Source: Nannobrachium achirus
Taxonomy: Eukaryota; Chordata; Actinopteri; Myctophiformes; Myctophidae
Reading direction: 5' to 3'
DNA length: 64,000 bases
Assembly (NCBI GenBank): GCA_963921795.1
Contig: OY997651.1
Location: forward strand, 53,330,018-53,394,017
Each line of letters starts with the position of its first letter. The first letter of the stretch is position 1. Below the pieces are notes generated by a model, which saw only the letters and a program-made list of their open reading frames with translations, was not told where the DNA came from and did no database searches. Below are positions 5,999-28,576 of this stretch, piece by piece. The translations under genes and the position numbers were made by a program.

Positions 5999-8900
5999 TC
6001 ACTCCCTACTTGGTGTTGCCGAAGTCAACACACAGTATACTGCATCATGGTAACTGTAGTAGGTGTGCAGTACACCTGACTGAAGACAATACCCCGGTTG
6101 TGATATGTAGATGTGATCAATCAGGGTCTGCTCTTGGGTTGTTGCGGTGGAGATAAGCTGGCTGTAGCCTTTGGACTCAAACAGCTCCTTAACATGTTTC
6201 CGTCCCATCTTGAGGAGGTCCTCATTAAAGTCTCCACAGACGACAATGGGTTGGCAATCCATCAAGGCCAAAGACTCCAAGAGGCGTCCAAGGTTGAGAC
6301 AAAAGTCGCTGTCTTTGTATTTTGGGGGTCTGTAGACAGTGGCTATGAGCGCTTTGACTGGGGCCTCAACTCTGACGACTGCAAACTCGAGATCGCTGAC
6401 ATTGTCAACAAACCTTGGGGGGTCTGCTTGAAGACTACTCTTGTAGTATGCCGCAACCCCGCCTCCCTTTTTTGTAGCAATGTGCTGCGTCTTGGCGCTT
6501 GTGTAAGACACATGTCTGTTGCATGTAACCAGGTAGTATCCCTCCAGCTCAACTTCTGTGGGAACGGAGGTTCCAGACAAATTGGTTTCTGTCATCAACA
6601 AGACATCAGCGTGTCTGAACTCGTGGTGAGCCCTCACGTCCTGAATGTGTGACATCAGTCCTTGCGTGTTGTGATGGACGATGGTTAACGTCGGACCCCC
6701 AGACCACTGTTGCACAAAGTGCATGAGTGGTCTCGTCAGTTGGAAGGAAGCGCGATTCATGCTCTGCATTGCCATTTTGATTTCTGGGTTGGCGTAAATC
6801 TTCTTTTCGTTAAAGTTTGTGATCCTGAGCCCTTGAAGGGAGGTTGTTCGGCTCAGTGCGACATATGCCATTCCAGCATTAAATGTCTTTTCCAAAGACA
6901 CCACTGCTGAACTGACGGTCATGCCTTGAACTTTGTGGGTTGTACACCCAAAGGCCAGTTTAACGGGGAACTGCCGTCGCACAAGTGATGTGTTGGTCAG
7001 GCCCTCCTCAGACCTTTCGATGTACACCAGGTCATCGGTTGGCCCCTGAATCTTCCTGCGGAAATTCTGACCTGCCGTGGGACAATCCAATCTGAGCCCA
7101 AGCAAATCCACGACCATGCGTCCACCTGCAGTGGTTGAAACAATGTTGGCTATTGTTCCAAAAGTCCCGTTTACGATCCCGTCTTCGACATCCAGATTCC
7201 TAATGACCATGACCCGTGCTCCTTGGGCAACTTCGATGCTTCTTTCCAAGTCCCTTCGGTTACTGTGCTTGTAGGGCTCGTACAGCAGCTTCATCTGGCC
7301 TGAGCATCTGTCCTTTGAGTAATCTTGTGCCAGAATCGTGGAAATCGGTGTGCCGAGACTTTTTATAGCCAACTTGTTGTGGGCTTTGACCTCGTCGTTT
7401 CGGGAAAAGATATGAAGGACATCATACGGGCCGTCTCTTCTTTCAGTGCAGGCCTGTGTGAGCAGAGCCCTGTCATCGGCACTGAGAGGATCGGCCTTCC
7501 TCTTTACTCTTAGCCTGTTCAAGAGTTCGGCGAAAATGCGATCGTCTCTCTGACGCATGATCTCCGTAAGGTCAACAAGCTGAAAATCTGCCCAGAGACC
7601 GGACACAGCCTCGTCGGCAATGCAGAGCGGTTTGCCACTACCAACTGGTGGCAGCTGGTAGAAGTCTCCGACCACAAGGACAGACATCCCACCGAAAGGT
7701 TTCCTGTTGCCTTTGATCTGCTGGAGTCTCAGGTTGACGTAGTCAAAGACATCCTTGGAGACCATGGATATCTCGTCGATGACCAAGATCTCCGCGGTCC
7801 AAAGTGCTCCCCTCATCTCATCCAGTGAATTTCCAAGCGATTTATAGTGGCCCTTCAGACTTCTCGGTAGCTTCAGCAGCGAGTGCAGGGTTCTCCCAGA
7901 TATGTTGAAAGCTGCAGTGCCAGTAAACGCCGCCAGCAGAACTGCCGGCTGGGTCATATCTGCTTCGTTGAGAAAGCAGGGAAGTTGGCGCAGGATCTTG
8001 GTAGCCTCGTGATATATGCACTTGATGACATGAGACTTGCCACAGCCGGCACCCCCAGAGATGAAATAGTAGAAGGGATCAGGATCCTGACGCCAGACGC
8101 GTCTCCAACACCATTGACGCACAGCGTAGAAAATGGACGCTTGCGTTTCGTTGAGGCTCCGATACATGCTCCTGACATAGTCCGGGCTCAATTCAGGAGC
8201 ATCGATCCCTGGCATCGCCCTACTGCTGTTAGGTTGGACTTGGTATTCCGGAACCTCGTCTCGCTCCTGTAGCTCGTCGGGATCGCTAACTTTTTGCTGC
8301 CTGAAGCGATCGACCTCCGCATCTGGATCAAAATTGTTCCACGCATCAAGGATAGCTGGTTGTCCTGCTTGCAGCATTTCCAGAGCCTGATCCATTTTTC
8401 TCCCCCGCCCTTCATATTTGTCTTTGTTCTTATCGACAATGATCTTCACAGGCCAGCGGGTGCTCTTTGTTTCGCCAAGAAGCACATGAGCATTTTTGTA
8501 GAAGTGCTCATATGTCGGATAGTTCTCGCTTTTCAGTTGGCTGTCTTCTCTGTGTGGCAAGTACAGTTTCAGCAGCCGCCTGTAAAATTTTTCCGGGGTT
8601 TTCTTCTCAGAGAACGGGGGGTAACGTATGATGGCGACTCTATCGAGATTAGTTCGTTTCTGAACGAACCCCATGTCGTTCAGCAGGGCCGATGCTTTCG
8701 ACTTGTCGCTTTGTTGGCTGTACACCACCCTGTATTCCGACGCAAACTCAGCCATACACAGGTCTTCGAATTCTGTCTCCTGAGGCCTGTTCAGGTACTT
8801 CTCAGGTATCCCTGACATCCACACTTCTTGTGCGTCTGGGTCCATCTCCTTCAGTTTGCTCATGGGCTGACTCATTCTCAGACCATCCTCGTCTGTCTGT

Positions 8901-11900
8901 AAGAAAATTACTTGACGGGTGCACTTTTTAAGTGGGAGACTGCATACCCGGGCCACAGATTCCTGTGCACTGACCTCTCTGCGCTGGACGTACGCGTGCA
9001 TGATATGTTTCATTTCATCCATTTCCTTGGTGTTGGGTTTAGATTTGCGCACTTCTTTCACCACTTCGGTAAGGAGCTCGGACATCTCATGTTCCGGTTT
9101 TGCCACATACCCCAACATGTACTGGGCACAACTGTAATCATCCAGTATATATTGGATGTCCATGTTGGCATCCCACACTCGCAGCAGATGGGGATTGTAC
9201 GGATTTACCCAGCATTCATCAGGATCGCGCTTCAGGTGAATGGTGGGTACAGTGGTAAGGTTGTCTACGTAGTCCCGATATTGCTCCGCAGTCAGGTTGC
9301 ATTTCTCCAGCAGATCCGGCAAATCCTTGAATGAGGCTTTGGGGTCATTGAGCATGTCCCTCAGGGGTGCCAGCTTTTCTTTGGCCTCCATTTGTTCCTT
9401 GGTCTCTTGCTTCCAGCCTTTTCGCTTTCGCCCTTTACCCTTCTGGCCACCAGCGTTTTCATCTTTTTTGGCCTCGTCGTCGCCTTTGTCGTCATCCAAA
9501 GGCAAAAGTGGTGGGGCAATCTGACCACCACCACTTTCATCTTTTTTCGCCTCGTCGTCGTCGTCTTTGACCTCATCCAAAGGCGGAAGTGGTGGTTCGG
9601 TGATGATTGTCTGGTCCATGGGTAGTTTGGGGAACCCAAATCGACAAGTGACGTTTCCTTTCTTGCACGATCTGGAGTGGCTTCGGCTGTGAACTTGAAC
9701 TTCAGACACAATTTTGTGGAGCTCGGGGTCTGCGTACTGGTCAGGCATCTTGCAACTGACGTAGGTGTCTATGAACTTGATGAGGCGTGGGTCATCGGCC
9801 GTCGGTGCGTCTTTAATCCAAACCATCATATGGATGTGGGGACTTCCCCTAGCCTGAAATTCCACACGATAGAAATAGTCCACAACCTGACCGATTGGCC
9901 TTGCAGGCGACTGGAGAAAATCCATGGCCCTGTCAAATCTCTTTGAAAACATGCGCATGAGTGTGACAGGGTTGGTCCGGATGATTTCACATTTCGCAAG
10001 CCAGTCGAGCTGTGAATAGTCTCCTTGTTCACCTTGTTGCGCTTTTATGGCCTTGATGACTTCCGGCCACCTCATCTCCGCGGCACTTAGCGTGACAAAC
10101 CAATTGGGCCTGCCGATCTGTCTACACATAGCGAGAAGGTCCCTAAGTGCTTTCTCCCAAAACGCCGGAGTTCCTCTAAGGGGCATCATGAAGCGTGTCG
10201 CGTCCTTGTTCCGTACAAGTCTTTCTACCTCTTCTTTATCCTGCAGCATTTTGTTTGACAGAACGCGTCCGTCCCTGGTATATTTTTTCCCCTTCCGTAC
10301 CTGGATGGACATGCTGTTAGTAGCCATGTGCGTTTCTGTCACCATTTGCGCATAGAAGAGGTAAGTTTGGTCGGTGGCAAAGCGGGTATCGACCGAAAAG
10401 AGCCTGGCGTTGAAGTACCTACTTGGGGACAATTTTTTCTCTCTGACCTCATCCAATGTGTTTCGACCGTCTGGGAAATGCCCAGGAAAGGCCATGCTCT
10501 CCAACTTGGGGACGGTGAAAATACCCACAGGCCTGTTTCCTTGGGCTGGTGCAATGCTGAATATTCCCTCGCCGAATGATAAGATTTCCTGTGCTATGTC
10601 CGGAGGCTGCATGCACGTGTCAAAGGTCAGACCGGGTCTAAGCTCCTCCTGCTGCTCATCTGTGGTGGTGGCAGTGGATGGACCGGGTGCGAGTTCCTCA
10701 TGCGGTTGTGGCTCATCTTTGGTGGTGCGTGCAAGTTCCTCCTGCTGCTCACCTGTGGTGGCGGCAGGGGTTTCCTCTTCTGCATCTTCTTCATCGCCCG
10801 ACTGCTCGTCTTGGAGACGGTCAAACGTAGCGCTTTCGTTTATGACAATGTCATAGTATTCTGGATGCATCTTTTTGAGTTCCCTCAGCGCCGCCAACAC
10901 ATTCGTCATGTTTACCGTGTAGAAGAACTGATGGCCCTTGTACTTGATGTGTCGCTTCAGCTTGACCTGCAACAGCTGGTCTTCATTGCTGGACCTCGGA
11001 AGAGCATTTACAACGGCTTCCACTTCCGATGGTACACACACAACTGCACCATGAACAGCCTTTTGCCGTCCTTTAGGCAAAGAAATTATTTTAGCAAAGG
11101 GTAAGAACTTTGCGATCATCTGCCTTTCCAGCATATTCAACAGTTGAAGCTCTGGGGGAACGGGTGCTGGTTCCAGCTTATTAGCAGCTGCTATGGATGG
11201 CATCGACCCCTGTTTCAAGTTGTCGTGACAGCAGGTGCAGATGTACTCCTGTCTCCTCTCTTGTGCAACGTCGCATGGGTCTGAGCATTCACTGCCACAT
11301 GCGTGCACATACTTGCCTGTCAAGCAAGCGGTTACCACGGAAGGGTTTAACTTGTAGTTGTCCCTGTTACACCAATGGACCTGATTGTAGAACAACGCTC
11401 TGTGGCACACCGTACAGACATATGTGGGACCATGTCGAATGCTTTCCCGGAATGCCGATATGGCTTCTTCCATTGCAGCTTCCATTGTAATTTGCAGGTG
11501 ACGGTTTACAATGTGTACAGACCTTCTCTTTAGTCTCATGGCACACTGCAACTTGTGACGGATACGGAGTATGACATCTGCATCGAGTCTCTGCTTTTTG
11601 ATCTCGGTGCATCGTTGTATATGCCGTCGCCTGAATTCTGGGTTGCTGTGAAGCCTTTCACGCTGGTTCTTGGCCTTTTGTTGCATACGCCGCTGCCTGA
11701 ATTCAGGGTCATTGTGAAGCCTTTCACGCTGGTTCTTTGCAGTGTGTTGTAAATGCCGCCGCCTAAATTCAGGGTCATTGTGAAACCTTTCACGTTGGTT
11801 CTTGGCCTTTTGTTGCATACGCCGCTGCCTGAATTCAGGGTCATTGTGAAGCCTTTCACGCTGGTTCTTTGCAGTGTGTTGTAAATGCCGCCGCCTAAAT

Positions 11901-14245
11901 TCAGGGTCATTGTGAAGCCTTTCACGCTGGTTCTTTGCAGTGTGTTGTAAATGCCGCCGCCTAAATTCAGGGTCATTGTGAAACCTTTCACGTTGGTTCT
12001 TGGACATTTGTTGCATACGCCGCCGCCTGAATTCAGGGTCATTGTGAAACCTTTCACGCGTTCTTTCTCGAAAAGCAGCATCAGTTTCCCATCTGTTTTT
12101 TTTCGCCTTAAGTTTATTCAGCCGGACTTCTGGAATTCTATATCTCATTTTATAATATTGGGCAGGATCGGAGGTTCTCAGGCCCTTGTTTGCACGTGGT
12201 ACATTCTGTTCAATGCACTCATGTTGTTGCCGCAAGACTTTGCACTTGTTCCTTCTTCGCCTTGCTTTATTTAGTTTGGAAAGCGTGGGTACTGCTAATG
12301 CGAGTGTTGGCATTGCTGGTGTTGTAATTGCAGAACAGTTAAGTTCAAAGGCAACAGGCATGAGCTCATACGAAACACCAGGACGACGGCCTTTGAGGAT
12401 CTGGCGCAAGTGGCAGACCAGACCACTCAGGTCAAGGAAAGTCAACATAATGGCCTTGCCTCCAAGATCAGGCAAACCGTCTGCCGATCTTGAGTGGGAG
12501 TCAAACAATCCATAACGCCCTGATCTGTCGCGGAAGACTGCAAAACATTCAGGGGTTACCATCAACAAAGCATGCGTGACCCCCTCCTGTGACAGGCACT
12601 TTTGCAGTTGATCAGCAAGGGACAAGTTGTTCCGTTTAGTTTTGTCCAGGGGACCGATTTTAAGGTTTGACATGTTCAGTTGTACACTGTAAACATTGCG
12701 GTTGGTGGAAACCTGCCTTGCATGGAGGAGTTGCTCCATGGTCAAGAGATATGACTGTTTCTGTAACAGTTGGTCACAATGCAGCTGCTGGATTAAGTCT
12801 TTGTAGAGTGCATCTCCCTGGTAAAGCACTTTGTCAAGGGAGGCCGTGTCGAAACCTACTCCATCATTATGGTAGGCAAGAAACGTGAGTGCCATGCAGG
12901 TGCACTGTTTGTTCGGGTGCTGTCCTACAATGTCCCCTTGACAAATGGTGGCCCTCACTGCTTGAAAATGTTGCTTTTCTTGCCTTCTACCCCTCTTCAG
13001 AAATGGTTCGAAAACAGCCGGTTTTGGCAATGGTGCTGTGGCTGGTGTGAATGTCACATTTGTTGACGGTCTAGGGGTCTGACTGGAGCCACGTTCGATT
13101 GCTGCTGTAGCGGTTATGTCTGTTGACTGCACAGCGGTGTCACTGGAGCCACAATCGATGGCTGCTGTGGTTGTCACGTTCGTTGACGGGCCAGGGATAT
13201 CACTGAGGCCATGGTCGGTTGCTGCTCTAGCTTCTGAGATGGACATAGCTGTTGACGGTCCAGGGGTCTCACTGTAGCCATCAATCAGAAATGAAACGGG
13301 CAAAAGCTCATACGTCGCAAGAGGACGACGACCTCTAAGAATCTTGTGCAAGTGGCCGACCAAACCACCCAGATCATCGAACATCTTCAGTATTGCTTTT
13401 CCTTGATATGCTGGCAAACCCGTGGCAGATCTCGAGTGAGAGTCAAACACTCCATAGCATCCTGACGTGTCACGGAACAATGCAAAGCATTCAGGAGCCA
13501 CAATCAAGATGGCATGGGTTACATCTCCTGACAAGCACTGCACACTCTCCTCAAGAAGTGGCAAACGTTGACTACTCCTTTCACTTGGCTTTTTTGGTGA
13601 ATCTGATTTTTTCACAAAACCAGCCCTCAGATCCGAGTTGAACACAATGTAAGCATTTCTTTCAGTGAAAACCTGTTTTGGTAACTCCTCAATGGTCAAG
13701 TGTGGTAGTACATGCCTGTTGTCGTAGTGATGCTGCGCGATAACGCCTTTGTAGAGAGTATCTCCACGTGCAAGCACCTTATCAAGGGAGGGTGTGTCAA
13801 AACACATTCCCTCATTGTGGTCAGCCAGAAAGGTCAGCGCTATGCAGGTGCACTGACTATTTGACCTTTCGGACATCGGGTCAAGTGGGTTGTCCAATAG
13901 GTCAGCTTGACAGCGAGATGCCCTTACTGACTGCGGAAAGGTAATTGTATTACTTACCTTACTGCCTGGGCCCTCAGCATAGGTGGGAGGTAGAGTTGTA
14001 TGACTTACCTCGCTACTGTCCTTGCCACTTACCTTGCTGCCACTTACCTTGCTGCCTTTGACGTCCTCATAGGTGGGAAGATTCACGTCCTTGCTGCCCG
14101 GGCCCTCAGCATAGGTGAGAGGTACAGTTGTATTACCTACCTTACTTACCTTGCTGCCTTTGCCATGGGTTAGGGTTAGGGTGGGAAGGGGTGGGGTGGG
14201 AAGATGCACATCTGAGACCTCATGGACGAAACACTCCGTCTCCAT
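5999..14245 (-). CDS. Helentron-type (Helitron) replicase, terminal exon, 2,748 aa
   Basis: An uninterrupted 2,748-residue frame. In order: Gly/Ser/Lys/Val repeats (1-105); C76/OTU-like protease domain 1 (about 108-300, QCTC and FDSHSR); domain 2 (about 430-625, same motifs); a basic 22-residue repeat (about 728-882); a CxxC-rich module (about 935-1020); the Helitron N-terminal/Rep domain with the HUH motif SPHIHMMVW (about 1470) and the tyrosine motif YMLGY (about 1707). Next comes a PIF1-type helicase: Walker A GGAGCGKS (about 2065), Walker B VIDEIS (about 2152), [13 protein letters not shown] and [11 protein letters not shown]. Last is an APE-like endonuclease from about 2520 with TETNLS, VYRPP, GDFNED and SYHDAVY. 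In the family, Rep nicks DNA for rolling-circle transposition and the helicase unwinds it. All key motifs look intact. The endonuclease marks the Helentron/Helitron2 branch rather than canonical Helitrons. Confidence 0.93.
11600..12062 (-). repeat. 66-bp coding repeat (7 x 22 aa)
   Basis: Seven units with the pattern RERxHNDPEFRxR followed by a variable HLQHTAKNQ or RMQQKAKNQ end. They are in frame inside the replicase exon between the second protease domain and the Cys-rich module. The units fall into two alternating classes at the 3' half, indicating recent unequal exchange. They are strongly basic, which would suit nucleic-acid binding. Confidence 0.9.
12370..12960 (-). other. C76/OTU-like cysteine protease domain 2 (coding sub-region)
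   Basis: Residues about 430-625. It repeats domain 1: [46 protein letters not shown] and [14 protein letters not shown]. The two are clear paralogues by internal duplication, diverged mainly between the Cys block and the DxH block. Both keep the Cys, Asp and His, so neither is obviously dead. Confidence 0.6.
13345..13925 (-). other. C76/OTU-like cysteine protease domain 1 (coding sub-region)
   Basis: Residues about 108-300 of the replicase exon. It holds a glutamine-cysteine block ([16 protein letters not shown]), a conserved middle part ([15 protein letters not shown]) and the Asp-x-His block [14 protein letters not shown]. This Cys then DxH layout resembles the large-tegument-type deubiquitinase fold (peptidase C76) and OTU-like proteases that accompany some fish mobile elements. 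The catalytic assignment is by motif position only. Confidence 0.6.
13950..14165 (-). repeat. Coding repeat carrying splice-donor-like sites
   Basis: The first ~100 codons of the terminal exon repeat the block AAGGTAAGT, usually as GGCAGCAAGGTAAGT, at least five times on the minus strand. Between them stand two copies of a segment encoding [10 protein letters not shown] or [10 protein letters not shown]. Each AAG/GTAAGT is a near-ideal vertebrate 5' splice site, yet all are in frame. The small exon 24027-24161 ends with the same GGCAGCAAG in front of its donor. Confidence 0.7.
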
Positions 14246-14249
14246 CTGT

Positions 14250-15030
14250 TGAGAAAAAGAAAGAATGACAAAATGTCAAACCAAACACATTAATATTAGT
14301 AATATTGTTTTGGTTGTGTGTACACTGTACACATGTCCAAAACAGCTACTTTTGAGTAGAACCTGTGTTCCGGCGGATCCAATGTAGTCTTAATTTTACA
14401 AGCTATTGTTAATACATTGCATTGTTTAGTTCAAGGTTCACGTTTGTCACATACGTATATCCATACAAACGCAAAGAAATGCTTGTGCCAAGGGCACACT
14501 TTGCCTTAATACACAGAGACATGGTCACAGTGACTGACAACAGTGTACACCCACATACCATGCAGCCCAAACAAAGACAAATCCCAACATACACAACATA
14601 CAGTGTAACAGTGTACAGCTTAAAAGTGTGTGCAGAGCCTATGTTACAACCCTTCGTTGAGCAACCTGACTGCCTGGGGATACGAACTATTACTGAAACG
14701 GGTGGAGTGTGATTTGATGCCCCGGTAACATTTTTTTGGATAGGAGGAGAGAGAACAGGGTATGGGCGGGATGGCTGCTATCTTTAATGATTTTTCTTTT
14801 CAAATCTTTTTTTATTAAAGTACAGTCAGTGTCATAATGAGGCAGGTACATACATATATTGATGACACCCCAAGTCCCATTCCCATCACAGTAATCATTC
14901 AATCAAATTAGCACGAGATCTGAGGCCATCACGGTACGTACAAATTCAGCATGTGGTAATATAGATTGTATGGAGCTGTGGCAGTGTCGCGGTGTTACAT
15001 TTTTAACACCGTTAAAACCGTCCATTAATG
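14250..15030. other. Intron, no feature recognised
   Basis: Just upstream (minus sense) of the replicase exon. The acceptor tract TTCTTTCTTTTTCTCAACAG is at 14246-14265; the rest is unique-looking AT-rich sequence without open frames of interest. Confidence 0.45.
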
Positions 15031-15527
15031 CAGGGGTTTTCAAACTTTTGTGTCTCAGGGCACCCACTAAATATTTGTTTTAATCCAAGGCACCCCTACA
15101 TTATAATTTTCACTTTCAGCACCTTATATTTATAGCATATCGTCGTTGTCGGGTGGAAACCTTGTATGTCCAAAAACATTTAGTATTTATCATCTATAAA
15201 ATGTACTAAACTAGTGAAAACAGCAGATCTATAAGCACACAACGCTTCGCATTGCGAGGCGTTGTGTGCTTGTAGATTGGCTGTTTTCACTAGTTTTGTG
15301 TGGCGGTCTTGTATGATGAAGCAGGGCAAAAGACGTACACATTTGAAACTTGGAGATACGGCTCATGACAGAAAGTGATTATGTTGCGAGGAAAACGTTG
15401 AGATAATAGCCATTTTGTTTAGAACTGACTGAAAATAACTTTGTACTTCAAGTTTAAAATTATACTAAATAATAATTTTGGTCCAAATAAATTCCAAATA
15501 TTCTCAAACGATCTCACGGCACCCCTG
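15031..15527. mobile_element. hAT-like nonautonomous element (CAGGGGTTTTCAAAC start)
   Basis: Begins CAGGGGTTTTCAAACTT at 15031 and ends near GGCACCCCTG at 15527, with GGCACCC motifs near both ends, as in Charlie-like hAT relics. I find no matching target duplication, so borders are approximate. It contains the most perfect hairpin of the recurring motif at 15210-15294. Confidence 0.5.
15210..15294. repeat. Near-perfect hairpin of the recurring motif
   Basis: The outer 15 bases ACTAGTGAAAACAGC pair perfectly with GCTGTTTTCACTAGT. The inner arms, carrying AGATCTATAAGCACACAACG and its partner, differ at three bases. The loop itself contains TCGCATTGCGA. This shows the complete two-armed form of the motif found across the window. 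Confidence 0.9.
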
Positions 15528-15569
15528 GACTGCCATCGCAGCACCCCAGGGTGCCCCGTCACCCACTTT

Positions 15570-18070: not shown

Positions 18071-19037
18071 GTGTGTGGCTGTGTGCTTAGCCGTTCACTG
18101 TGCTGTGCAGCAGCATGCATGTTATGTTTCCTGCCTCAGCAAGGGGCAGCCCTAGTACTCAGTGGTACACCGGTACACAGTATCATGACAAGAGTTGAAT
18201 GAGGTGCCTTTGTAACCAGTAACAAGCCAAATAGGTTCAGTGGAACAATCGACCATGACAGTGATTAACCTCTGATTATAATAGCCTCCAGCTCCTTGTT
18301 TTATTGCTGCATGCAACATACATACTAACAACATATACTAACAACAGGGGTCATGCTCAAGCTCCATAGCAACACATACAGTATACCAAAAAACAACCCC
18401 AACATATTTCTGAATTAGTCTACTGCACTATTGCCTGAAATAACTATCACAGGTAGCTTAAACAAATTGGCAACACAAACAAATAATGGTACATTTGGTT
18501 ACCATCTCTCCATCATTTAGCTAGGGACCACCAGGATCCCCCTCAAGGACCACTGTTAACAGTGGTTGAGAACCTCTGCCCTACTCAGCAACACACAAAA
18601 GCATCAAAAGTAGAAGATCTACAAGCTCAAAATCAGCTTGTAGATCTGCTAGTTTTCTTGCACCCTTGCTAGACATATATACTTCATTGTACAACGGTAC
18701 TGCACGTCGAGAGTAGCCGATATACAAACTCACATGGTGTGCACATGATTGGAGTTGACCATTAAGGCATCTAGACTTTATAAATTCATATTTAAAGTAA
18801 TACTATTCAACAATAAGTCATCGAACATCACTACAAACTTCTTACAGTTTACAATGTTATGTATCCCCATATTACAGCTCAATGTAGAAATTAGGCAACA
18901 TGTAGGCTTTGCAGCCACCTTGTGGTAACAATGGACAACAGCAGAACGCATAAACCTGTCCAGCCATTAGATGAGTGATTTGCTCTCACAGTGAGTGACA
19001 TTTTCCCCCAAAATAATAGCGTGTCAAATGTCCTTAC

Positions 19038-19127
19038 CGCGGCACCAGGGGAGAGGGGTACGTCCACGCCACGGCTCACAGCATATCCTCGGGAGAACGG
19101 TGGTGCTGTGACGATCGGAGGACTCGC
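19038..19127 (-). CDS. Exon 16: amplified Pro/Ser exon, copy 4
   Basis: Encodes 30 residues, ASPPIVTAPPFSRGYAVSRG then VDVPLSPGAA. Donor GCG/GTAAGG. Phase 0, which would join the ATG of the replicase exon in frame 4.8 kb downstream. I saw no further exon between them, but one could be missed. Confidence 0.55.
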
Positions 19128-20174
19128 CTGTGCACAGAAAAGGACAATGTTTACACCATGACAATTCAATTCTGTGTATGGCTGCAAGATGTACAAAGAT
19201 GTTTTAACACTAGCAGAGATGCTCAACCATTTTGATTTCAAGGACCCCCAGTTTGACTGCTAGGCTTGACCACAGAAGACTGTGCTTGTACTGGTCAGCT
19301 CCCAGTGACTTAACGGTAGAAGACTGTGGTTGTACTGGTCAGATTGCAATGACTAACAATCTATCACTGTTTTACTGGGAGCTAACCAAGTCTTCTACTG
19401 TGGTTGTACTGTATATTACACTGCAATTTACAAACGACACGTTGTGAGCTTGTAGATCTGAACATTTTGGTGCTGACCTGCGTGTGCATACTGCTTCCTA
19501 TCAGTGTGGCGTGGACCATTGAGGCAGCTACATACATTATAAACATATCATGATTTGCAAAGGCATGGATGGGGCAGTGTTGCAGAAAATGAAGGCTACC
19601 CTAGTGTGACGCACCATGTTTGTTATGCAAGAGGACAAGTGGTCATATGCAGTGCTGAACTTGGCCAACATTACTTGGGAAAGAAACGGTTACTTCGAGA
19701 TCAAAGATCCACATTTGTCTGGGGACCCCATCTGTAAATATCGTGTGCTAGTAGCTCCCATAAAAGATGTGTCTTGTTAAATCCTGATCCAGGTTTTATA
19801 ATAATTGATAATTGCTCACTGCGTGTCAAATAACTAAAAACATATCCCTGTCACACCGCGTGCACATGAGTGCAGTGGACGATTAAGGCATCTATAGACA
19901 TTATAAATTAAATTATATAATTAAATAAAGTAATACTATTCAACAAAACGTCATCTAACATCACTACAAACTTCTTATAGTTTACAACGTTATTTATCCC
20001 CATATTACAGCTCAGTGTAGAAATTAGGTAAAATGTAGGATTTCCAGCCACCTTGTGGTAACAATAGACAACAGCAGAATGCATAAACCTGTCCAGACAT
20101 TAGATGAGTGATTTGCTCTCACAGTGAGTGATTTTTCCCCCCAAAATAAATACTAGCGTGTCAAATGTCCTTAC

Positions 20175-20264
20175 CGCGGCACCAGGGGAGAGGGGTACGT
20201 CCACGCCACGGCTCACAGCATGTCCTCGGGAGAACGGTGGTGTTGTGACGTTCGGAGGACTCGC
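20175..20264 (-). CDS. Exon 15: amplified Pro/Ser exon, copy 3
   Basis: Encodes 30 residues, ASPPNVTTPPFSRGHAVSRG then VDVPLSPGAA. Acceptor TCTGTGCACAG, donor GCG/GTAAGG. Phase 0. Nearly identical to exon 16, with 1,137 bp between equivalent positions. Confidence 0.6.
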
Positions 20265-20413
20265 CTGTGCACAGAAAAGGACAATGTTTACACCATGACA
20301 ATTCAATTCTGTGTGTAGGCAGCAAGATGTACGAAGATGTTTTAACACTCTAGCAGAGATGCTCAACCATTTTAACCCATTTAGGCCTAGAAATGATTGA
20401 ATGCTTTAACCAG

Positions 20414-20475
20414 TGAAAAATAGCAGATACACAAGCTCAGTAGATCTGTAGATCTGCTTGTAGATCTGCTATTTT
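20414..20475. repeat. Hairpin motif copy
   Basis: Left arm GAAAAATAGCAGATACACAA and right arm CTTGTAGATCTGCTATTTTT around a short loop with an extra TAGATCTG repeat. It is followed by sequence shared with the copy at 47,681 (TGGTGGTCCCTGG then GAACCACTG), so these two belong to one element family. Confidence 0.85.
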
Positions 20476-20830
20476 TGAAAAAGTCGTGACAATTTGTGCA
20501 AATCTTTGAATATTATGTATTTTCAAAGCAAACGTTTGTAACTCAAATTTTGCTTCTGGGTGGTCCCTGGAACTAGATATTTTGAGATGCGGGTACGTGG
20601 CCAAATAAATATAATTTTGGGGCTCCTTCACATGAAAAGGTTTGAGAACCACTGACAAAGTAGTCTCTCAAGAACAGACTAACTGAGCTCCAGTTAAGAG
20701 AAAAGGAGCTTTTCTTTGACAATGGCTGGCCAGATTGCTGACATAGAAACATAGGGTTTTTCAAAAAATCTTGGAAGGATTCAAAAGACACTTATAGAAT
20801 CGGGTCAAAATTCTAATTTTCGCGACTTTT

Positions 20831-20880
20831 CAAAAATAGCAGATCTACAAGCTCGCAGCACTGTGAGCTTGTATATCTTT
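20831..20880. repeat. Hairpin motif copy
   Basis: CAAAAATAGCAGATCTACAA, then GCTCGCAGCACTGTGAGC and TTGTATATCTTT. Arms are complementary with a few mismatches. Confidence 0.8.
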
Positions 20881-21584
20881 TATTACATAAAAGTGGAAAC
20901 CCTTTGTGTAGGCAACAAGATGTTGAAGATGAAGATGTTTTAACACTCTAGCAGAGATTCTCAACCATTTTAATTTCAAGGACCCCCAGTTTGACTCTCA
21001 GTCCCAAGAGCAGAAGACGGTGGTTGTACTGTTCAGGTTCCAATGACGTAGAAGACTGTGGTTGTACTGGTCAGATCCCAGTGACTAACAATAGAAGACT
21101 GTGGTTGATTAGCTTCCAGTACAACAGTAGTAGACTGTGGTTATACAGTGCATTGGACTGCAATTTAGTAACGACACTTTGAGACTCTAGATCTATACAT
21201 TTTGGAGTGGACCTGCACATGCATACACGCAGTCAGTTCAGTTGTGTCTACAACCGTACTGTAGTGAATGGTATAGTAAAATATTCTGCTTCATCTCTTC
21301 CCTCGCTTTGCTGTTGTGTCCAGTGCTGTCCAGTGCCATATCAAACAATCTGTAACGACTGTGGTTACCAGGCTCTAGCCATGTTTTTCATGTCAAATTA
21401 AAATGTATTTGTCTAGGGACCCCATCTGTAAATATGTTGTGCTTGTAGCTCCCATAAAAGATTTGTCTTGTTAAATCCTGATCCACATTTTCCTCCAAGA
21501 AGAAATAATTGATAATTGCTCACTGCGTGTCAAATTACTAAAAAGATATCCCTTGTCACACAGTTACAAGTTACATCTCCTTAC

Positions 21585-21686
21585 CGTGGCACATGGGACG
21601 TCACAGCTCACAGCCGTTCTTCGAGAGAGAGGCGTTGTTGTGACTGGTTTGCGCAGAGACTTGCCAGGCGATTTCGGTGGACTCGC
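21585..21686 (-). CDS. Exon 14: amplified Pro/Ser exon, copy 2
   Basis: Encodes 34 residues, ASPPKSPGKSLRKPVTTTPL then SRRTAVSCDVPCAT. Same splice sites as exon 13. Phase 0 at both ends. Confidence 0.6.
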
Positions 21687-22176
21687 CTGCACACAGAAAC
21701 GGACAATGTGTCACATCACATTAACTCCAAACCTTTTTTCAGTGGAAACCATGACAATTCTTAACAGTGGAAACCCTGTGTGTAGGCAACAAGATGTTGA
21801 AGATGAAGATGTTTTAACCATTTGAATTTCAAGGACCCCCAGTTTGACTCCCAGTACAACAGTAGAAGACTGTGGTTTTAATGGTCAGCTCCCAATGACT
21901 TAGAGTAGAAAACTGTGGTTTCACTTAATTGGCTAGGCTTGAAGACAATGGTTGTACTGGTCAGCTCCCAGTGACTTAATGGTAGAAGACTGTGGTTGTA
22001 CTGGTCAGATCCAAATGACTAACAGTAGAAGACTGTGGTTGGTGACCTCTAGTACAACAGTAGTAGACTGTGGTTGTACTGTGCATTGCACTGCAATTTA
22101 GAAACGATGCGTCAAACTTGTAGATCTGAACATTTTGGTGCTGACCTGCACGCATACTGGTCCCTATCCATTAAGG

Positions 22177-22646
22177 CAGGGGTCTCAAGCTGGTGGCCCG
22201 GGGGCCATTTGCGGCCCGCGAGACGATATTTTGTGGCCCTCACCTTAATATGAAAGTTTAATGTTAGTGTGGCCCGCAAGTTTTATATGAACCTCAAAAC
22301 AGTTAATAATACAGTACAGTGAACAGTACAGTACATGTTCCATAAGTTAAACACAACTTGTTTACACCAGGGTCCTTGTTCATCTTATTTTGTGTTAAAA
22401 AATAAAAAAGGCATTTGAGAAGATTGGATTTTTCTTTGATGGGGAGATAGATACAGTAGTTGTTAGACTGGTATGAAACTACAGTATGATAAAACAAATT
22501 AGTGCATATGCACTCATTTGTTTTATTAGTGCATGTCGCGCACATACACGCGCTGCGCACGCGTGCATGTGCGCTGAGGCTGCAGCCCAGCCTCAGACAG
22601 ATTCTGCCTCCAGCAGCCCCAAGGTAAATTGAGTTTGAGACCCCTG
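22177..22646. mobile_element. hAT (Charlie-like) nonautonomous element with intact TSD
   Basis: Starts CAGGGGTCTCAAGC and ends GTTTGAGACCCCTG, with GTGGCCC/GCGGCCC motifs inside. The 8-bp CATTAAGG flanks it on both sides (22169-22176 and 22647-22654). It is 470 bp, has no transposase, and lies in the intron between exons 13 and 14. The perfect duplication suggests a fairly young insertion. Confidence 0.9.
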
Positions 22647-23788
22647 CATTAAGGCATCTACAAACATTATACATTCATACCATAATTTGCAAAGGTATGG
22701 GGGCAGTGCTGCAGAGAATAAAGGATAACCTAGTGTGACCCGCCATCTTTGTTATGGAAGAGGACAAGTGGTCATATGCAATGCTGAACTTGGCCAACAT
22801 TACTTGGGAAAGAAATGGTTACTTCTAGATCAAAGATCAACTGACAGCTATAGTCAGCATTACAATAAACATAATAGTACATATCTCCAGCTAAGGTCTC
22901 CAAATAAATATATTTATTTAGTCCCAGAATAAATATAGTCCAATGGGGATGTAAGTTTGAAGGTATGGCTAAACACACAGTAACACTAGTAACATGTTTG
23001 CTGTGAATAATATCACTGTTGTTAAAGTGAGAGAGAGACTCTGTTATTACAGTCTTTTGTCAACAGATGGCTCCTTTGTTTCCCCAATTCACATTCTATT
23101 AAAATTGTCAACATTAACCTTAAATTTACACCAGCGATTCTCCAAAGTTGTCATGTCGAGGACCCCCAAATTGCCACCATTAGTCCGCAGATCCCCATTT
23201 GAAAAGATAAGCCAGGATGGCGGGACAACAATGCTGTTTTTTTTTAGAGAGACAGAACACTAGATGGAAAGCTGATGCTGTTTTGCATCAAACTTTGCTG
23301 TACTGTTCTATACATTCTGTTTCATTGCTTGCACATTGCACTTGATAGATAACTTGATTGATATATGTGCTTAGCTCTAGGTTCAGCCTAGATATACAGA
23401 CAGGTAGCTGATTGCAGGGCCATGTGTGATCATTTTGGGTGGGGGTTGCTAATTAGTCAGTTCAAGTTCTGTCTACAACTGTACTGTAATGAATGCTATA
23501 GTCAAATATTCTGCTTTATCTCTTCCTATCTTTGCTGTTGTGTCCAGTGCCATATCAAACAATCTGTAACAACTGTGGCTACTAAGCTTTAGCCACGTTT
23601 ATAGTGTAATTTGTCTGGAGAGCCCCATCTGTAAATATGTTGTGCTAGTATCTTCCATAAAAGATTTGTCTTGTTAAAATCCAGAACCACAATTTCCTAC
23701 AAGAAGAAATAATTGATAATTTCTCAGAGTGTGTCAAATAAAAAAATAACTAGAAACATATCCCTGTCACACAGTTACATCTTCTTAC

Positions 23789-23896
23789 CGTGGCACAAGG
23801 CACGTCACAGCTCACAGCCACTCTTCGGGAGAGAGGTGGTGTTGAGAGGTGGTGTTGTTTGCGCAGAGACTTGCGAGGCGATTTCGGAGGACTCGC
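23789..23896 (-). CDS. Exon 13: amplified Pro/Ser exon, copy 1
   Basis: Encodes 36 residues starting ASPPKSPRKSLRK and ending CDVPCAT. Acceptor TCTGTGTGCAG, donor ACG/GTAAGA. Phase 0 at both ends. The region around GGTGGTGTTGAGA is a small internal duplication. Confidence 0.6.
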
Positions 23897-24026
23897 CTGC
23901 ACACAGAAACGGACAAAAGGTTTTTCAGGCATGACAGTGGAAACCCTGTAGCTTTTTGTATAATGTTGACATTTTGTATCTGTCTAAATTAAATAAGGCC
24001 TGAACTACAGATACACTTCAATTTAC

Positions 24027-24161
24027 CTTGCTGCCCTTTGGAAAACCTGGGCACTCCACAGGGCTGTTCAGGTTTGATGGCAGGAATGCTTCCATAGCGT
24101 TCAAGACCTTAGGGCTAAACCACACAGGATTGCGAGGGATTGAACTCTCTGGCGAGTCGTC
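24027..24161 (-). CDS. Exon 12: NPVWFSPKVL motif
   Basis: Encodes 45 residues with PRNPVWFSPKVLNAMEAF in the middle, then SNLNSPVECPGFPKGSK. The hydrophobic, non-repetitive centre looks like a conserved functional motif. The end GGCAGCAAG/GTAAAT equals the block repeated at the start of the replicase exon. Phase 0 at both ends. Just upstream lies a CAGA microsatellite. Confidence 0.65.
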
Positions 24162-24173
24162 CTTTTGTAGAAA

Positions 24174-24176
24174 GAA

Positions 24177-24211
<35 letters not shown>
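24174..24211. repeat. (CAGA)n microsatellite
   Basis: About nine CAGA units on the plus strand, 13 bases upstream of exon 12 in the direction of transcription, next to its pyrimidine tract. Confidence 0.95.
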
Positions 24212-24831
24212 ATTGAGAAGGATTATGATTATTAGATTAGGGATAATTATAAATCTTCCCCTGATTGGTCCGGTGATTTTCTGATTTCTCATGCCATCTG
24301 CCTACAAGCCAAACTCCAGACTGATTATTATATCGTGGAGTATCGTGTGAGTGAATCCACATCATCAGGCTGGCACTGCCAGGCCTTATAAAACCGACAG
24401 ACACACAGAGTTCACACATCGTGTGAGCCTGTAGATCAGATATTTATTTGATAGTGTCATTAAAGTGTCATTAAATGCTTTTGAATTGGCTACATCAAGG
24501 AGAGGAGACAGTATCATACTATTGTATATATGACAGGATGTTGTCTTCTACTGTATGTGTGATGCAGCATGCTGTCTATTAATGAATGCTTAGCCACACC
24601 AAGACTACTCCCCCACTCATTCGGCCAACATTTTCAGAAAATAGCAGATCTACAAGCTCACAGCATGTCACGCTAAATGGACTGCATCTTTGTAGAACAG
24701 AGCACCCGTTTGTTTCACTAGTCAAAGGAATGTCGGAAGTTGATTGGGAACGCTGTTCTCAACCGCTAACTAGTACAAAGCGAGTAGAGCACGCACTGGG
24801 TCCCAACAATAGGTATTAAGAGGGTTTTAAC

Positions 24832-24909
24832 CTGTTGCTGCTGCTGCCGCTGCTGCTGCTGCGATAGCCAAGTTGACGACTGCCTGGGAGGTACGGGAGG
24901 CGGGCTGGT
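24832..24909 (-). CDS. Exon 11: polyglutamine
   Basis: Encodes TSPPPVPPRQSSTWLS and ten residues that are all Gln except one Arg. Acceptor TCATTTCAG, donor CAG/GTTAAAAC. Phase 0 at both ends. The CAG/CTG run is a likely length-variable site. Confidence 0.6.
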
Positions 24910-25000
24910 CTGAAATGACAAATGCAGATTGATGAGTAAAATGTTAATACCCTAACAGAGTATCCCTTTTCACAAAGCACTGACAGGATTCAACACTTAC

Positions 25001-25120
25001 CCTCACACCAGGTGAACGTGGTACACGCACTTCACGACTCACAATCACTCTCGGAGACACAGTGCGGACTGGAGGTGGTGGCACCACAGCTGGCTTGGAG
25101 GGTGACTTCTTGGGAGTCAG
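25001..25120 (-). CDS. Exon 10: Pro/Arg-rich, founder-like copy of the amplified exon
   Basis: Encodes 40 residues: LTPKKSPSKPAVVPPPPVRT followed by VSPRVIVSREVRVPRSPGVR. It aligns with exons 13-16 by its xxPKSP start and the SRRVxVSxxV part. Acceptor TGCATAG, donor AGG/GTAAGT. Phase 0 at both ends. Likely disordered linker. Confidence 0.65.
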
Positions 25121-25215
25121 CTATGCATACAAAGAGAAAAATGTTTACAGCCTCGGAAATAAGAACCCTGTCAACTTAGCTTGTATTTATTTAGAATTAA
25201 GATGTCCGGACGAAC

Positions 25216-25311
25216 CTGTGCTGTCTGGACTGTTCGCTGCAGCTCGCTTTCAACTGCCATTACAATCGAAAAAGCCAACACCGACATCCCATACGAATCA
25301 GAAAGATGCAC
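25216..25311 (-). CDS. Exon 9: starts at the catalytic His
   Basis: Encodes VHLSDSYGMSVLAFAIVMAV and ESELQRTVQTAQ, the end of the SGNH domain. Acceptor TCTCTCAG, donor CAG/GTTCG (weak). Phase 0 at both ends. With exons 6-8 the catalytic set Ser, Gly, Asn, Asp and His is complete. Confidence 0.7.
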
Positions 25312-25450
25312 CTGAGAGACATAATACAACATTTTCAGAATCCAATAGACATTTTAATATTCCGTTAGTTGATATGTAATGTTGTATTCATATGATCTAC
25401 AAATAATGCATAATCTCCACATGACTTTTGAAAACAAAGATTGCACTTAC

Positions 25451-25518
25451 ATTGTCGCGACACCAGAGTTCAGACTGTGTCAGCGGAAACAGATCTGTCG
25501 TGCCGGTGTATGTGACAC
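25451..25518 (-). CDS. Exon 8: ends at the catalytic Asp
   Basis: Two bases complete a Gly codon, then VTYTGTTDLFPLTQSELWC and RDN. The final Asp-Asn joins Val-His of exon 9 to give DNVH, the block V DxxH catalytic pair. Acceptor TATTTAAG, donor AAT/GTAAGT, exit phase 0. Confidence 0.75.
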
Positions 25519-25594
25519 CTTAAATAAAGAAAGAACATAAACATTTTAAACATGCCTAAAACATTATTATCAATATTACATTTATATGTTGTAG

Positions 25595-26410
25595 CACAAT
25601 CTGTCTCTCTGCATTCTATGATCCTATAGTTTGCTGAGACACTACGCTCTCTCTCTGCATTCTATGATCCTGTAGTTTACTCAGACGCTACGCTGTCTCT
25701 CTGCATTCTATGATCCTATAATTTACTGAGACGCTACGCTGCCTCTCTACTTTCTATTATCCTATAGTTTACTGAGACGCTACGCTGTCTCTATGCATTC
25801 TATGATCCTATAGTTTACTGAGACGCTACGCTGTCTCTCTGCATTCTATGATCCTATAGTTTACTGAGACGCTACGCTGCCTCTCTACTTTCTATGATCC
25901 TATAGTTTACTGAGACGCTACGCTGTCTCTCTGCATTCTATGATCCTATAGTTTACTGAGACGCTACGCTGTCTCTCTGCGTTCTATGATCCTATAGTTT
26001 ACTGAGACGCTACGCTGCCTCTCTGCATTCTATGATCCTATAGTTTACTGAGACGCTACACTGTCTCTCTGCATTCTGCATTATATGATCCTATAGTTTA
26101 CTGAGACGCTACACTCTCTCTTTATTCTATGATCCTATAGTTTACTGAGACACTACACTGTCTCTCTTCATTATATGATACTATAGTTTACTGAGATGTT
26201 ACGCTGTCTCTCTTTGCATTCTATGATCCTATAGTTTACTGAGACACTACACTGTCTCTCTGCATTCTATGATCCTATAGTTTACTGAGACACTACGCTG
26301 TCTCTCTGTATTCTATGATCCTATAGTTACTGAGACACTACGCTGTCTCTCTGCATTCTATGATACTATAGTTTACTGAGACACTACGCTGTGTCTCTGC
26401 ATTCGTATAG
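25595..26410. repeat. 46-bp minisatellite, ~17 copies
   Basis: The unit runs TTTACTGAGACGCTACGCTG then TCTCTCTGCATTC and TATGATCCTATAG. Copies vary at a few positions, for example CACTACACTG for CGCTACGCTG. It fills most of the 1-kb intron between SGNH exons 7 and 8, splitting the catalytic domain at gene level but not at protein level. No unique spacers, so not a CRISPR array. Confidence 0.95.
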
Positions 26411-26562
26411 TTCAAAAGGTCCTGCAACTACTTGAACCCTAGCATCCCTATTTGTGGGGAATATTTTCAAAAAAATAGCCAGTGTACAAGCTCACAACGA
26501 GTCACATTGTGAGATCAGCCTAACCAGACATTATCTGTTGTGTATGCATTTCTTTTACTTAC

Positions 26563-26656
26563 CACAGAAGTTAGCCGCACGTTTGAAAGCCTCGCGAAGA
26601 TCGTTCTGGCGGCTGATGTCAACATTCAGGCGAGGTGGAAAGTCAAGGACGAAAAC
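26563..26656 (-). CDS. Exon 7: SGNH middle strand and helix
   Basis: Encodes VFVLDFPPRLNVDISRQ to KRAANFC plus one base. Hydrophobic VFVLDFPPR fits the strand after block III. Acceptor TTTATAG, donor TGTG/GTAAGT; exits in phase 1, matched by the next exon. Confidence 0.75.
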
Positions 26657-26760
26657 CTATAAAAAACAAATTGTTCATCGTGAAAAACAACATCTTCTCA
26701 AACATTTGGAGGCATTTAAATAACCACGATAGAATAAAGTATTTGTAAGTATCAACTTAC

Positions 26761-27030
26761 ATGGTTCCAGCGTCGTAGAGCCGTATCGAGGAGCCTGCGG
26801 AAGTCGAGTCCTGCTTGGCTTACACTTTGACCTCCCAGGTCGTTGCTCGTTGCCATAATGCAGACGATGTCCGGGACATGTGGAACAACGGCGACTCTCA
26901 CTTCCCGTTCAACGTCTGCTGCTTTGGCACCGGGGAAGGACATCAGACCAAAGCTCAGGTCAGAGTTTGGCATGGTCACATATCCATCAACGATAGCGCG
27001 TAGATGAGATTCCCCGATGACCAGTGCGAA
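26761..27030 (-). CDS. Exon 6: SGNH-hydrolase core
   Basis: Encodes 90 residues beginning FALVIGESHLRAIVDGY. GESHL is the block I nucleophile-Ser motif, FGLMSFPGAKAAD supplies the block II Gly, and IMATSNDLGG is the block III Asn motif. Acceptor TTGAAACAG, donor CAT/GTAAGT; phase 0. SGNH enzymes are esterases/lipases of small-molecule or acyl substrates. Esterase domains are known companions of some fish and vertebrate retroelements. Its substrate here is unknown. Confidence 0.8.
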
Positions 27031-27137
27031 CTGTTTCAAGAGAAGAAAAACAACAACAACAACAAAAAATCAATGCTTTATTGTGTTAACAGTCACATTT
27101 ACTCCTCAAGACTTAATACACAAGCAAATAAAGATAC

Positions 27138-27248
27138 CTTCTTGGTTGACAAGTCAGCTGGAATGAGGGACTTGTGCTGCTTTCCTGTCAGGCGTGAACT
27201 CGGCCACTGCCTGACAGAGTGCCGTCTCCCTGTACCAAAGGCTGGTAG
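27138..27248 (-). CDS. Exon 5, upstream of SGNH domain
   Basis: Encodes 37 residues, including RRHSVRQWPSSRLTG and HKSLIPADLSTKK, which leads straight into the SGNH domain of exon 6. Acceptor CTGTTTTAG, donor AAG/GTATC. Phase 0 at both ends. Confidence 0.7.
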
Positions 27249-27284
27249 CTAAAACAGATACAGATAAAGATGAGGTGTTGACAC

Positions 27285-27775
27285 TACAGTTTAGGCATTT
27301 AGCAGACACTTTTAATCTAAATTGACTTAAAATAAGCAGGTAATATATCAATATAATAAGCAAGATAATGTCAGTGCATAACAATAATATAACAATGCAT
27401 AGGGATATCAATCTACAAAAACAATAACATAAGTAGACCATGCACCTAATCAGTAAACATGTTTCTAAAACCTAAAAATGCTCTAATTTCATTTATGGTC
27501 ATTGAGGGAAGGGTATTGCTATGGGTTTAGGTGGAGTCTGCAGAGGTAAGTCTTCAGTCCACGGCGGAAGCTAGGAAGTGAGTCTGTAGTTCTATGTGCG
27601 ACAGGGATTTTATTCCACAGTTTGGGGGCCAGGAGGGAGAAGAGTCTAGGACAAGTCGATTTTTGTCCTGGGGTTTTTAGCGAGGGTTCTGTCAGCATCC
27701 CTATGTTGGCTGATCTGAGTGAACGTTGGGGTTGTAGGGGTTGATCAGGTGTTGGAGGTGGTCTACTAAGGTGGA
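27285..27775 (-). mobile_element. LINE 3' fragment (L2/CR1 or RSg-like)
   Basis: On the minus strand a frame reads QRSLRSANIGMLTEPSLK to LLAPKLWNKIPVAHRT and SFRRGLKTYLCRLHL, the usual C-terminus of such reverse transcriptases. A short 3' region follows, ending AAAAGTGTCTGCTAAATGC. It is 5'-truncated and lies in the intron after tentative exon 4. Confidence 0.8.
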
Positions 27776-27779
27776 CCAC

Positions 27780-27875
27780 CTGTCCCTGGTGCTTAAATAA
27801 AACTTTGGGGCAGGCATAGTTTGCTTTCAGGTTGGCCGACTGGGCAAGTGCTCGTTTGAGAGGGAACACAGCCAT
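27780..27875 (-). CDS. Exon 4 (tentative 3' border)
   Basis: Starts directly after GTGTTTTTAG with ATGGCTGTG and encodes MAVFPLKRALAQSANLKANY onward to KHQGQ. The donor CAG/GTGGTCC is weak and lies about where the LINE fragment begins, so its 3' border is uncertain. If used, the phase is 0. Confidence 0.4.
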
Positions 27876-28033
27876 CTAAAAACACAACATCAGATATCTG
27901 TCTAAACACCTGAACGTGGCCAGAGCGCTCTGTCCTCTATTCTGTGGACTGTAAAATAGGAGCACTGGGTAAGCTACAGTATAAAGTGTTGTTTTCACTG
28001 GCACTAAAATAAAAAATATATAAAATAGCATAC

Positions 28034-28090
28034 CTGTTTAGCCATGGTACTCTGGCTGGTAGCTGGTGGGGAGTTGCAGAATCGAGCCAC
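28034..28090 (-). CDS. Exon 3
   Basis: Encodes 19 residues (VARFCNSPPAT to TMAKQ) between acceptor CAAACAG and donor CAG/GTATGC. Phase 0 at both ends. No domain recognised. Confidence 0.55.
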
Positions 28091-28249
28091 CTGTTTGATT
28101 GAAAAAAATTATTAGAAGGTTGCATAGGAAACAGTACAGTTTTACAGTAATTTTCTCACTGAAAAGGTTTGTCTCCAAGCAAATCCATTTGTCAGCAGAA
28201 GATTCACATTACAGTATTATCTGACCACAAATAGGTCAGTGCATTATAC

Positions 28250-28330
28250 CTTTTGCGCGGGTGAGGAGCAAGGTGTAGACGCTGTCGGTTTCACATCCAC
28301 CTGGACCAACGGTTGCGCAAGGTTTTCCGT
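28250..28330 (-). CDS. Exon 2
   Basis: Encodes 27 residues (TENLAQPLVQVDVK to SSPAQK). The acceptor TTGTTTTTTAG is strong and the donor is AAG/GTATAATG. Phase 0 at both ends. No domain recognised; Pro/Ser/Thr-rich. Confidence 0.6.
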
Positions 28331-28462
28331 CTAAAAAACAAAGCAAAAAAAAATAAGACAAATATAACTCTGGTATAAAGTGACAATATAGAGAACTGAC
28401 ATAAGATAATCATTTAATTGATAATCCCACTGTGAAGATTCAGGTGCACACATTTCTTTTAC

Positions 28463-28576
28463 CTCGCCAGGCGGTGCTACTGAGCGGTTTCTCGCGGCTG
28501 CGGCAGCAGCGGCGGCGGCGGCGGCTGCGGCGTGGCGTTGGGCGGCTGCTCTGGAACGCTTGTTTCCTCTGGCCAT
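28463..28576 (-). CDS. Exon 1: start codon and poly-Ala segment
   Basis: Encodes 38 residues starting MARGNKRSRAAAQ, with a run of 13 alanines and ending SVAPPGE. The start ATG (28574-28576) is preceded by a possible 3' splice site (GTCTACAG), so a 5' untranslated exon may lie upstream. Donor GAG/GTAAAAG, phase 0. The Arg/Lys-rich start could be a nuclear localisation signal. Confidence 0.6.

Follow-up and report, generated by a model that had tools for sequence, protein, structure and literature searches.

The window analysed here is a stretch of 64,000 nucleotides from the 1.66-Gb genome of the myctophid fish Nannobrachium achirus (contig OY997651.1; C14:53330018-53394017). Its left part is occupied by an element of family F1 that, judged by its sequence, looks like a giant Helentron, autonomous and recently active. 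The 3' half of the element encodes a replicase (two viral-tegument-like, VTD, deubiquitinases, DUF6570, Rep, PIF1 helicase and an AP-type endonuclease), and the 5' half holds a spliced SGNH hydrolase gene. This gene is texim, an identity based on its architecture, exon number and position. Texim lies inside the element ends, is linked to replicases across the genome, shows a low ratio of non-synonymous to synonymous substitution (dN/dS) and is mosaic in sequence. Very probably, texim in this autonomous-looking, recently active giant Helentron is a module that is both maintained and exchangeable, and it has been recombined between Helentron families. The families compared have as references the window (F1), C1:14680000 (F2), C7:45022000 (F3) and C20:29646000 (F4). 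The element and its 5' terminus are placed as follows (window coordinates here and below).

1..34066, minus strand, Helentron of family F1, 34,421 bp in all; ends from copy comparison
34027..34066, minus strand, 5' terminus, with CTAG followed by the inverted repeat AAAATGTCTAAGACATTTT and by AAGTGTGCCTGC

The 5' end (CTAG...) lies at 34066 and the 3' end (...GCAGGCACACTT) 355 bp to the left of the window start, and the element is thus larger than the interval 5999..28576 originally described. In the copies on C1, C11 and C12 the match to the window breaks off at 34067-34070, and all four flanks differ beyond this point. At the 3' end (in piece L029) the window element agrees in position with the copies on C1 and C12; in C11 the final bases are missing, and the CTAG end of another element adjoins there. 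T stands after CTAG in all four copies and before the other end in three of them, C11 with its adjoining element being the exception. AAGTGTGCCTGC occurs near the 5' end and its inverted copy closes the 3' terminus, forming an asymmetric terminal inverted repeat. Inverted repeats near both ends, a hairpin and insertion beside T are all as in Helentrons. The C1 and C12 copies are 97.7-99.95% identical to the window (longest match per 10-kb stretch), which fits recent activity; the C11 pieces are lower, mostly 94.6-99.8%, with part of the 3' region near 91%. From its family we infer that the element moves by rolling-circle transposition. Helentrons also occur end to end, with a CTAG end directly against the end of another element (L013 near 1500; L023 near 7834).

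The replicase is encoded in a single large exon:

5999..14245, minus strand, replicase exon, 2,748 codons and stop; ATG directly after the acceptor ctcaacag
13289..13858, minus strand, VTD deubiquitinase 1 (QCTC, FDSH); phmmer to 8ADD_A, E 1.7e-25
12347..12910, minus strand, VTD deubiquitinase 2 (QCTC, FDSH); phmmer to 8ADD_A, E 3e-26
10832..11209, minus strand, DUF6570; Pfam E 1.4e-19
9821..10417, minus strand, Helitron_like_N (Rep) with GSPHIHM; Pfam E 1.5e-34
7538..8155, minus strand, PIF1 helicase with Walker motif; Pfam E 4.4e-24
6068..6673, minus strand, C-terminal Exo_endo_phos endonuclease; Pfam E 3.1e-12

The open frame (14275-5999, minus strand) spans 2,758 codons from stop to stop and 2,748 from the ATG at 14245, which bears out the predicted frame following a 3' splice site in a compatible phase. 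Rep and a PIF1-type helicase are combined in one protein with an AP-type endonuclease fused at the C-terminus and, together with the inverted-repeat ends, this upholds the earlier description of the element as Helentron-like. The two protease-like domains had been labelled OTU- or C76-like. An OTU identity was dropped: neither domain has a Pfam match, to OTU or otherwise, up to E 10 (HMMER filters hide most weak ones), and both are instead homologous to 8ADD, with the Asp-x-His motif in the form FDSH. 8ADD is DrT1-VTD2 of a zebrafish Helentron (PMC9741609), and the deubiquitinases may protect the replicase, as has been proposed for Helitron VTDs in the same paper. In the stretch of the replicase from VTD2 to DUF6570 there is a 22-residue charged tandem repeat (11614-12066, minus strand), and the F4 replicase has a different charged repeat ahead of DUF6570.

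Upstream of the replicase, texim consists of 15 small exons (e01-e15):

28463..28576, minus strand, texim exon 1 (ATG, alanine-rich); homologous in F2 and F3
28250..28330, minus strand, texim exon 2; AG/GT borders
28034..28090, minus strand, texim exon 3; borders recur in relatives
27138..27248, minus strand, texim exon 4; borders recur in relatives
26761..27030, minus strand, texim exon 5, SGNH blocks I-III (GESHL, SND); catalytic residues
26563..26656, minus strand, texim exon 6 (SGNH); borders recur in relatives
25451..25518, minus strand, texim exon 7 (SGNH, ends RDN); borders recur in relatives
25216..25311, minus strand, texim exon 8, SGNH block IV with the catalytic His, the junction splitting DN|VH; catalytic residues
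25001..25120, minus strand, texim exon 9; borders recur in relatives
24832..24909, minus strand, texim exon 10, Gln-rich, without a convincing counterpart in F2 or F3; AG/GT borders
24027..24161, minus strand, texim exon 11 (RNPVWFSPKVL); 80-89% identical in F2/F3
23789..23896, minus strand, texim exon 12 (ASPPKSP repeat exon); AG/GT borders
21585..21686, minus strand, texim exon 13, like exon 12; AG/GT borders
20175..20264, minus strand, texim exon 14; AG/GT borders
19038..19127, minus strand, texim exon 15, like exon 14, the last found, donor gtaagg; AG/GT borders

Joined from 28576-28463 to 19127-19038, these exons give 538 residues without a stop, with AG before exons 2-15 and GT after all 15 in the window. 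The original prediction had counted 16 exons; its GT/AG borders, phase and open frame hold. AG and GT were present at the exon borders in 26 of 26 cases tested (e02-e09 and e11 of F1, F2 and F3, without e02 of F2 and without e01, e10 and e12-e15), and three further F2 exons outside this test have both. The SGNH catalytic set, including the DNVH that spans a junction, was correctly predicted: Ser8, Asn63, Asp143 and His146 are invariant in an alignment of five families, with the Gly of block II shifted in F5. Against Pfam Lipase_GDSL_2 the joined protein scores below the cut-off (E 2.1e-6; 28.8 versus 32.9 bits), and no significant relatives of the SGNH part were found in the PDB (best E 0.16). 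Esterase or hydrolase activity is predicted from the catalytic residues, and such a hydrolase might help germ-line transmission. A viral source of texim was considered and dropped, as none of 34 pattern matches in viral_contigs was confirmed. Growth of the gene by exon duplication, also proposed earlier, is borne out by the pairs e12/e13 and e14/e15, which resemble copies of each other in F1, and by the two e12-type exons of F2; one was found in F3. A candidate terminal exon with a stop and AATAAA (16208-15978) was rejected, having no match in the F2 or F3 pieces and being a dispersed repeat. This repeat (15978-16208, minus strand; a frame of about 91 residues, no Pfam match) has 755 candidate copies, of which 150 were scored; 5 of these 150 contain a stop, and identity outside the F1 copies is 84-93%.

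Within this genome the SGNH gene and the replicase are adjacent, as the original prediction had them. A search with exon 5 listed 71 matches, none with a stop, at 70 loci (two C10 pieces being merged). At 62 of the 70 the SGNH locus lies upstream of a listed replicase, on the same strand and less than 20 kb away (one replicase is broken), and at eight there is no listed replicase within 20 kb. No opposite-strand or downstream pair within 20 kb occurs among the loci listed, and one opposite-strand pair lies 21 kb apart. Pairing first used 88 of the 150 listed replicase rows, the RepN-search rows of at least 97% and one broken replicase. Among the replicases listed, texim accompanies 17 of 22 of F1 type, 12 of 12 of F2 type, 31 of 35 of F3 type and the single one of F4 type; all 47 of other types are without texim, although a divergent SGNH could be missed. 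The remaining 62 rows and seven rows of a 57% family, checked afterwards, add 69 more of the listed replicases, many of which belong to other kinds of Helitron; none has an SGNH locus within 40 kb. This last family (G000 at C1:71191155 and six similar places) has frames near 3,000-3,100 codons and a RepN 56-57% identical to that of F3, and it likewise has no SGNH locus within 40 kb. For three families, G6, G7 and G8, the sequence upstream of the replicase was also searched with a profile over about 7.8-9.6 kb, and no SGNH was found. One SGNH gene, F5, stands alone (L036, C9:34575500-34585499; exon 34584677-34584946). It is 59% identical to F4 and has a stop after the SGNH domain; over about 8.6 kb downstream of it there is no replicase like that of F1 or F4, and the gene is possibly a domesticated texim.

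Texim is under purifying selection. For the SGNH exons e05-e08, dN/dS is 0.18 between F1 and F2, 0.19 between F1 and F3, and 0.30 between F2 and F3, and the overall range between families is 0.15-0.30. These values come from the e05-e08 rows, the all-exon rows of F1c11, with a misplaced exon 2 match, being left out. They resemble those of the replicase (F1/F2: dN 0.114, dS 0.402) and speak against a decaying cargo.

Texim genes appear to have been exchanged between Helentron families by recombination inside the gene. The replicases of F2, F3 and F4 are 81%, 35% and 30% identical to that of F1 (2,111 gap-free columns), and those of F2 and F3 are 34% identical to each other, with dS saturated. 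Texim (e04-e08) is 74%, 76% and 45% identical to F1 in F2, F3 and F4, and 84% identical between F2 and F3, which therefore have close texim genes and distant replicases. In terms of dS, texim differs by 0.26 between F2 and F3 and by 0.88 between F1 and F2, and the F1 and F2 replicases by 0.40. Between F2 and F3 the DNA of introns and exons alike matches over a region that begins shortly ahead of exon 1 and reaches the repeat exons. Identity is 85-89% in the main stretches and 70-81% toward the 3' side, and no such match was found inside the replicase. It is this DNA-level evidence that carries the claim of exchange. In approximately unbiased (AU) tests, the replicase data reject the texim topology (p 5e-6). 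By exon 5, F2-type texim is paired with an F2 replicase at 12 loci, with an F3 replicase at eight and with none at one. In a hybrid of F2-type texim and F3 replicase (C2:46342000-46357999), identity over about 5.5-7.7 kb (200-bp windows) is 96-100% with F2 against 89-93% with F3, and directly on both sides of this tract, from 4.3 and to 8.5 kb, the sequence is 99-100% F3; at 8.5-8.9 kb two windows with few aligned bases give 86-92%, and beyond them the sequence is F3 again. The F2-like tract of 2.2 kb covers e03-e08 and reaches into e09. Its origin would be read most simply as recombination or gene conversion inside texim with subsequent amplification. Assembly error may produce such a hybrid, but the pairing common to eight loci counts against error.

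Some observations weigh against texim as a maintained and exchangeable module. The texim protein (223 columns) prefers its own topology in the AU test, but the replicase topology is not significantly rejected (p 0.052). In the hybrid, e07 stands at the same distance from F2 as from F3, and e09 at almost the same; this is a single hybrid, one of the eight such loci having been read in sequence, and the dN/dS values are drawn from three families. Texim is also not needed for transposition, because G6, G7 and G8 are without it, as are zebrafish, in which it is reported absent (PMC4021074). The relation of G6 to F3 is itself complex. The 5' region of G6 is mostly 75-91% identical to F3 in bases and the N-terminus 66-84% in residues per window, but RepN is only 45-46% identical (L031 and L033 versus L024-L026), and the view of G6 as an F3 without texim was dropped for this reason. 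The replicases are therefore mosaic too, and G6 offers no clean before-and-after pair. The dS values compared, 0.28 and 0.26, fit gain of texim in F3 as well as loss in G6; eight of the 12 inner branches of the RepN tree are open.

Texim and the replicase would form one transcription unit, from which alternative splicing would yield separate texim and replicase products and, in at least some families, an in-frame fusion of the two. The texim exon chains of F1 and F2 run without a stop and finish in phase 0, matching the start of the replicase, and the 599-bp gap between the last texim exon and the replicase of F2 contains neither AATAAA nor ATTAAA. A conserved texim terminal exon with a stop before the replicase was found in neither F1 nor F2. 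In F4, whose SGNH type is present at one locus only, nine GT-AG junctions, which use phases 0, 1 and 2, link ten exons in frame into the replicase exon; e04, e05, e06 and e08 match F1 texim, and the other small exons were placed by splice signals and by eye. In the F4 replicase exon an OTU-like stretch at residues 110-222 (Pfam OTU, 21.8 bits against a cut-off of 23.3, E 2.8e-4) comes before the first Met, and a stronger OTU lies at 958-1067; the first residues of this exon are similar, by eye, to small exon p1. Because no Met precedes the OTU-like domain, this exon needs upstream exons. In teximY/1 of platyfish, a Helitron lies within the last intron (PMC4021074), which agrees with a single transcription unit in which splicing skips the replicase exon.

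Several features tell against a fusion. In F1, F2, F3 and the texim-free G6 alike, the replicase ATG follows the acceptor immediately, and the acceptor is therefore not specific to fusion. In F3 the last texim donor is degraded (gtgtca) and read-through meets a stop after 27 codons; in F2 read-through of the last donor meets one after 6 codons, so that texim could end there. Two independent genes with separate promoters, riding in one element, would account for the degraded joining donor of F3 and the polyadenylation hexamers in its texim-replicase gap, for the possible F2 stop, for the long open replicase of G6 with the same acceptor and ATG, and for the solo F5 gene. This arrangement is possible, if somewhat doubtful, given the lack of a conserved terminal exon with a stop in F1 or F2, where the candidate is a dispersed repeat, and the need of F4 for upstream exons. 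An obligate polyprotein of about 3,300 residues, along the lines of the single polyprotein originally proposed, with texim exons always spliced to the replicase and the product cut by the proteases, would explain the open phase-0 join of F1 and F2, the F2 gap and the F4 join, yet it is unlikely. The position of the replicase ATG and the F3 donor oppose it, F4 could also be served by an initiating exon situated between texim and the replicase, platyfish texim gene models supported by expressed sequence tags, reverse-transcription PCR and rapid amplification of cDNA ends terminate in their own stop codons (PMC4021074), and the activity published for VTDs is directed at ubiquitin and NEDD8, no self-cleavage test appearing in the portions of that paper covered (PMC9741609). 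A host gene captured passively and now in decay is a highly improbable reading of texim: Helitrons do capture genes (PMC6431247) and some families lack texim, but its splice sites are conserved, all 71 listed exon 5 matches are free of stops and dN/dS between families is 0.15-0.30.

Alternative products are thus favoured over an obligate polyprotein. It is quite possible, though short of probable, that a shared, recombining texim pool combined with in-frame splicing in some families joins esterase, deubiquitinase, replication and endonuclease functions in one protein, alternative splicing choosing the parts.

Outside the element, a Pfam search of six window frames found only a reverse-transcriptase frame (52166-54112, plus strand; RVT_1, E 4.3e-36) and zinc fingers, of which a C2H2 array frame lies at 55597-57141 (plus strand). 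Repeat arrays occur at 41600-42208 and 43084-43692; they are 1,484 bp apart, and probably reflect a tandem duplication of about 1.48 kb.

The association of texim with Helitrons, VTD domains in Helentrons and Helentron ends are already published. Like Helentrons in general, F1 has an endonuclease-Rep/helicase fusion, inverted repeats near both ends and a T-rich target; unlike those described in the portions of that work covered, it is 34.4 kb long with a spliced SGNH gene (Thomas 2014, PMC4067079). Great length by itself has precedents, with maize Helitrons of up to 39 kb (PMC6431247). Zebrafish DrT1 shares with F1 two VTDs without OTU, Rep/helicase and a C-terminal endonuclease, but shows no SGNH in the portions of the paper covered (Erven 2022, PMC9741609). 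Helinoto, an icefish Helitron2, has three deubiquitinase-like domains according to a title in the references of PMC7599744, and F1 likewise has several. In guppy, the texim-like/Helitron repeats of LG12 also have Helitrons adjoining SGNH/texim genes; they are sex-linked, males having the higher copy number in five of six populations, and the portions of that source covered describe neither element ends nor exchange (PMC7643365).

The closest precedent is texim itself, associated with Helitrons in platyfish, medaka, pufferfish and sea bass since 2014 (Tomaszkiewicz 2014, PMC4021074). Capture by Helitrons was proposed there, and the benefit of texim to the element was left open in the portions covered: does texim serve the transposon, or is it a fertility gene spread by one? 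With families that have texim, lack it or carry it in recombined form, many long open replicases and selection on texim, this question becomes testable. Neither exchange between families nor an in-frame join was found in the open-licence literature covered, with most subscription journals outside it. What is new is that texim, on sequence comparison, in all likelihood moves between Helentron families, which suggests recombination as a means for DNA transposons, like phages, to trade functional modules. As in teximYa/b, a 15-exon SGNH gene has a Helitron coding region 3' of it; unlike the texim described in the portions of that paper covered, the window element has ends that enclose both, several texim-replicase pairings coexist in one genome, and an exchange tract between families and the in-frame join of F4 are present (PMC4021074).

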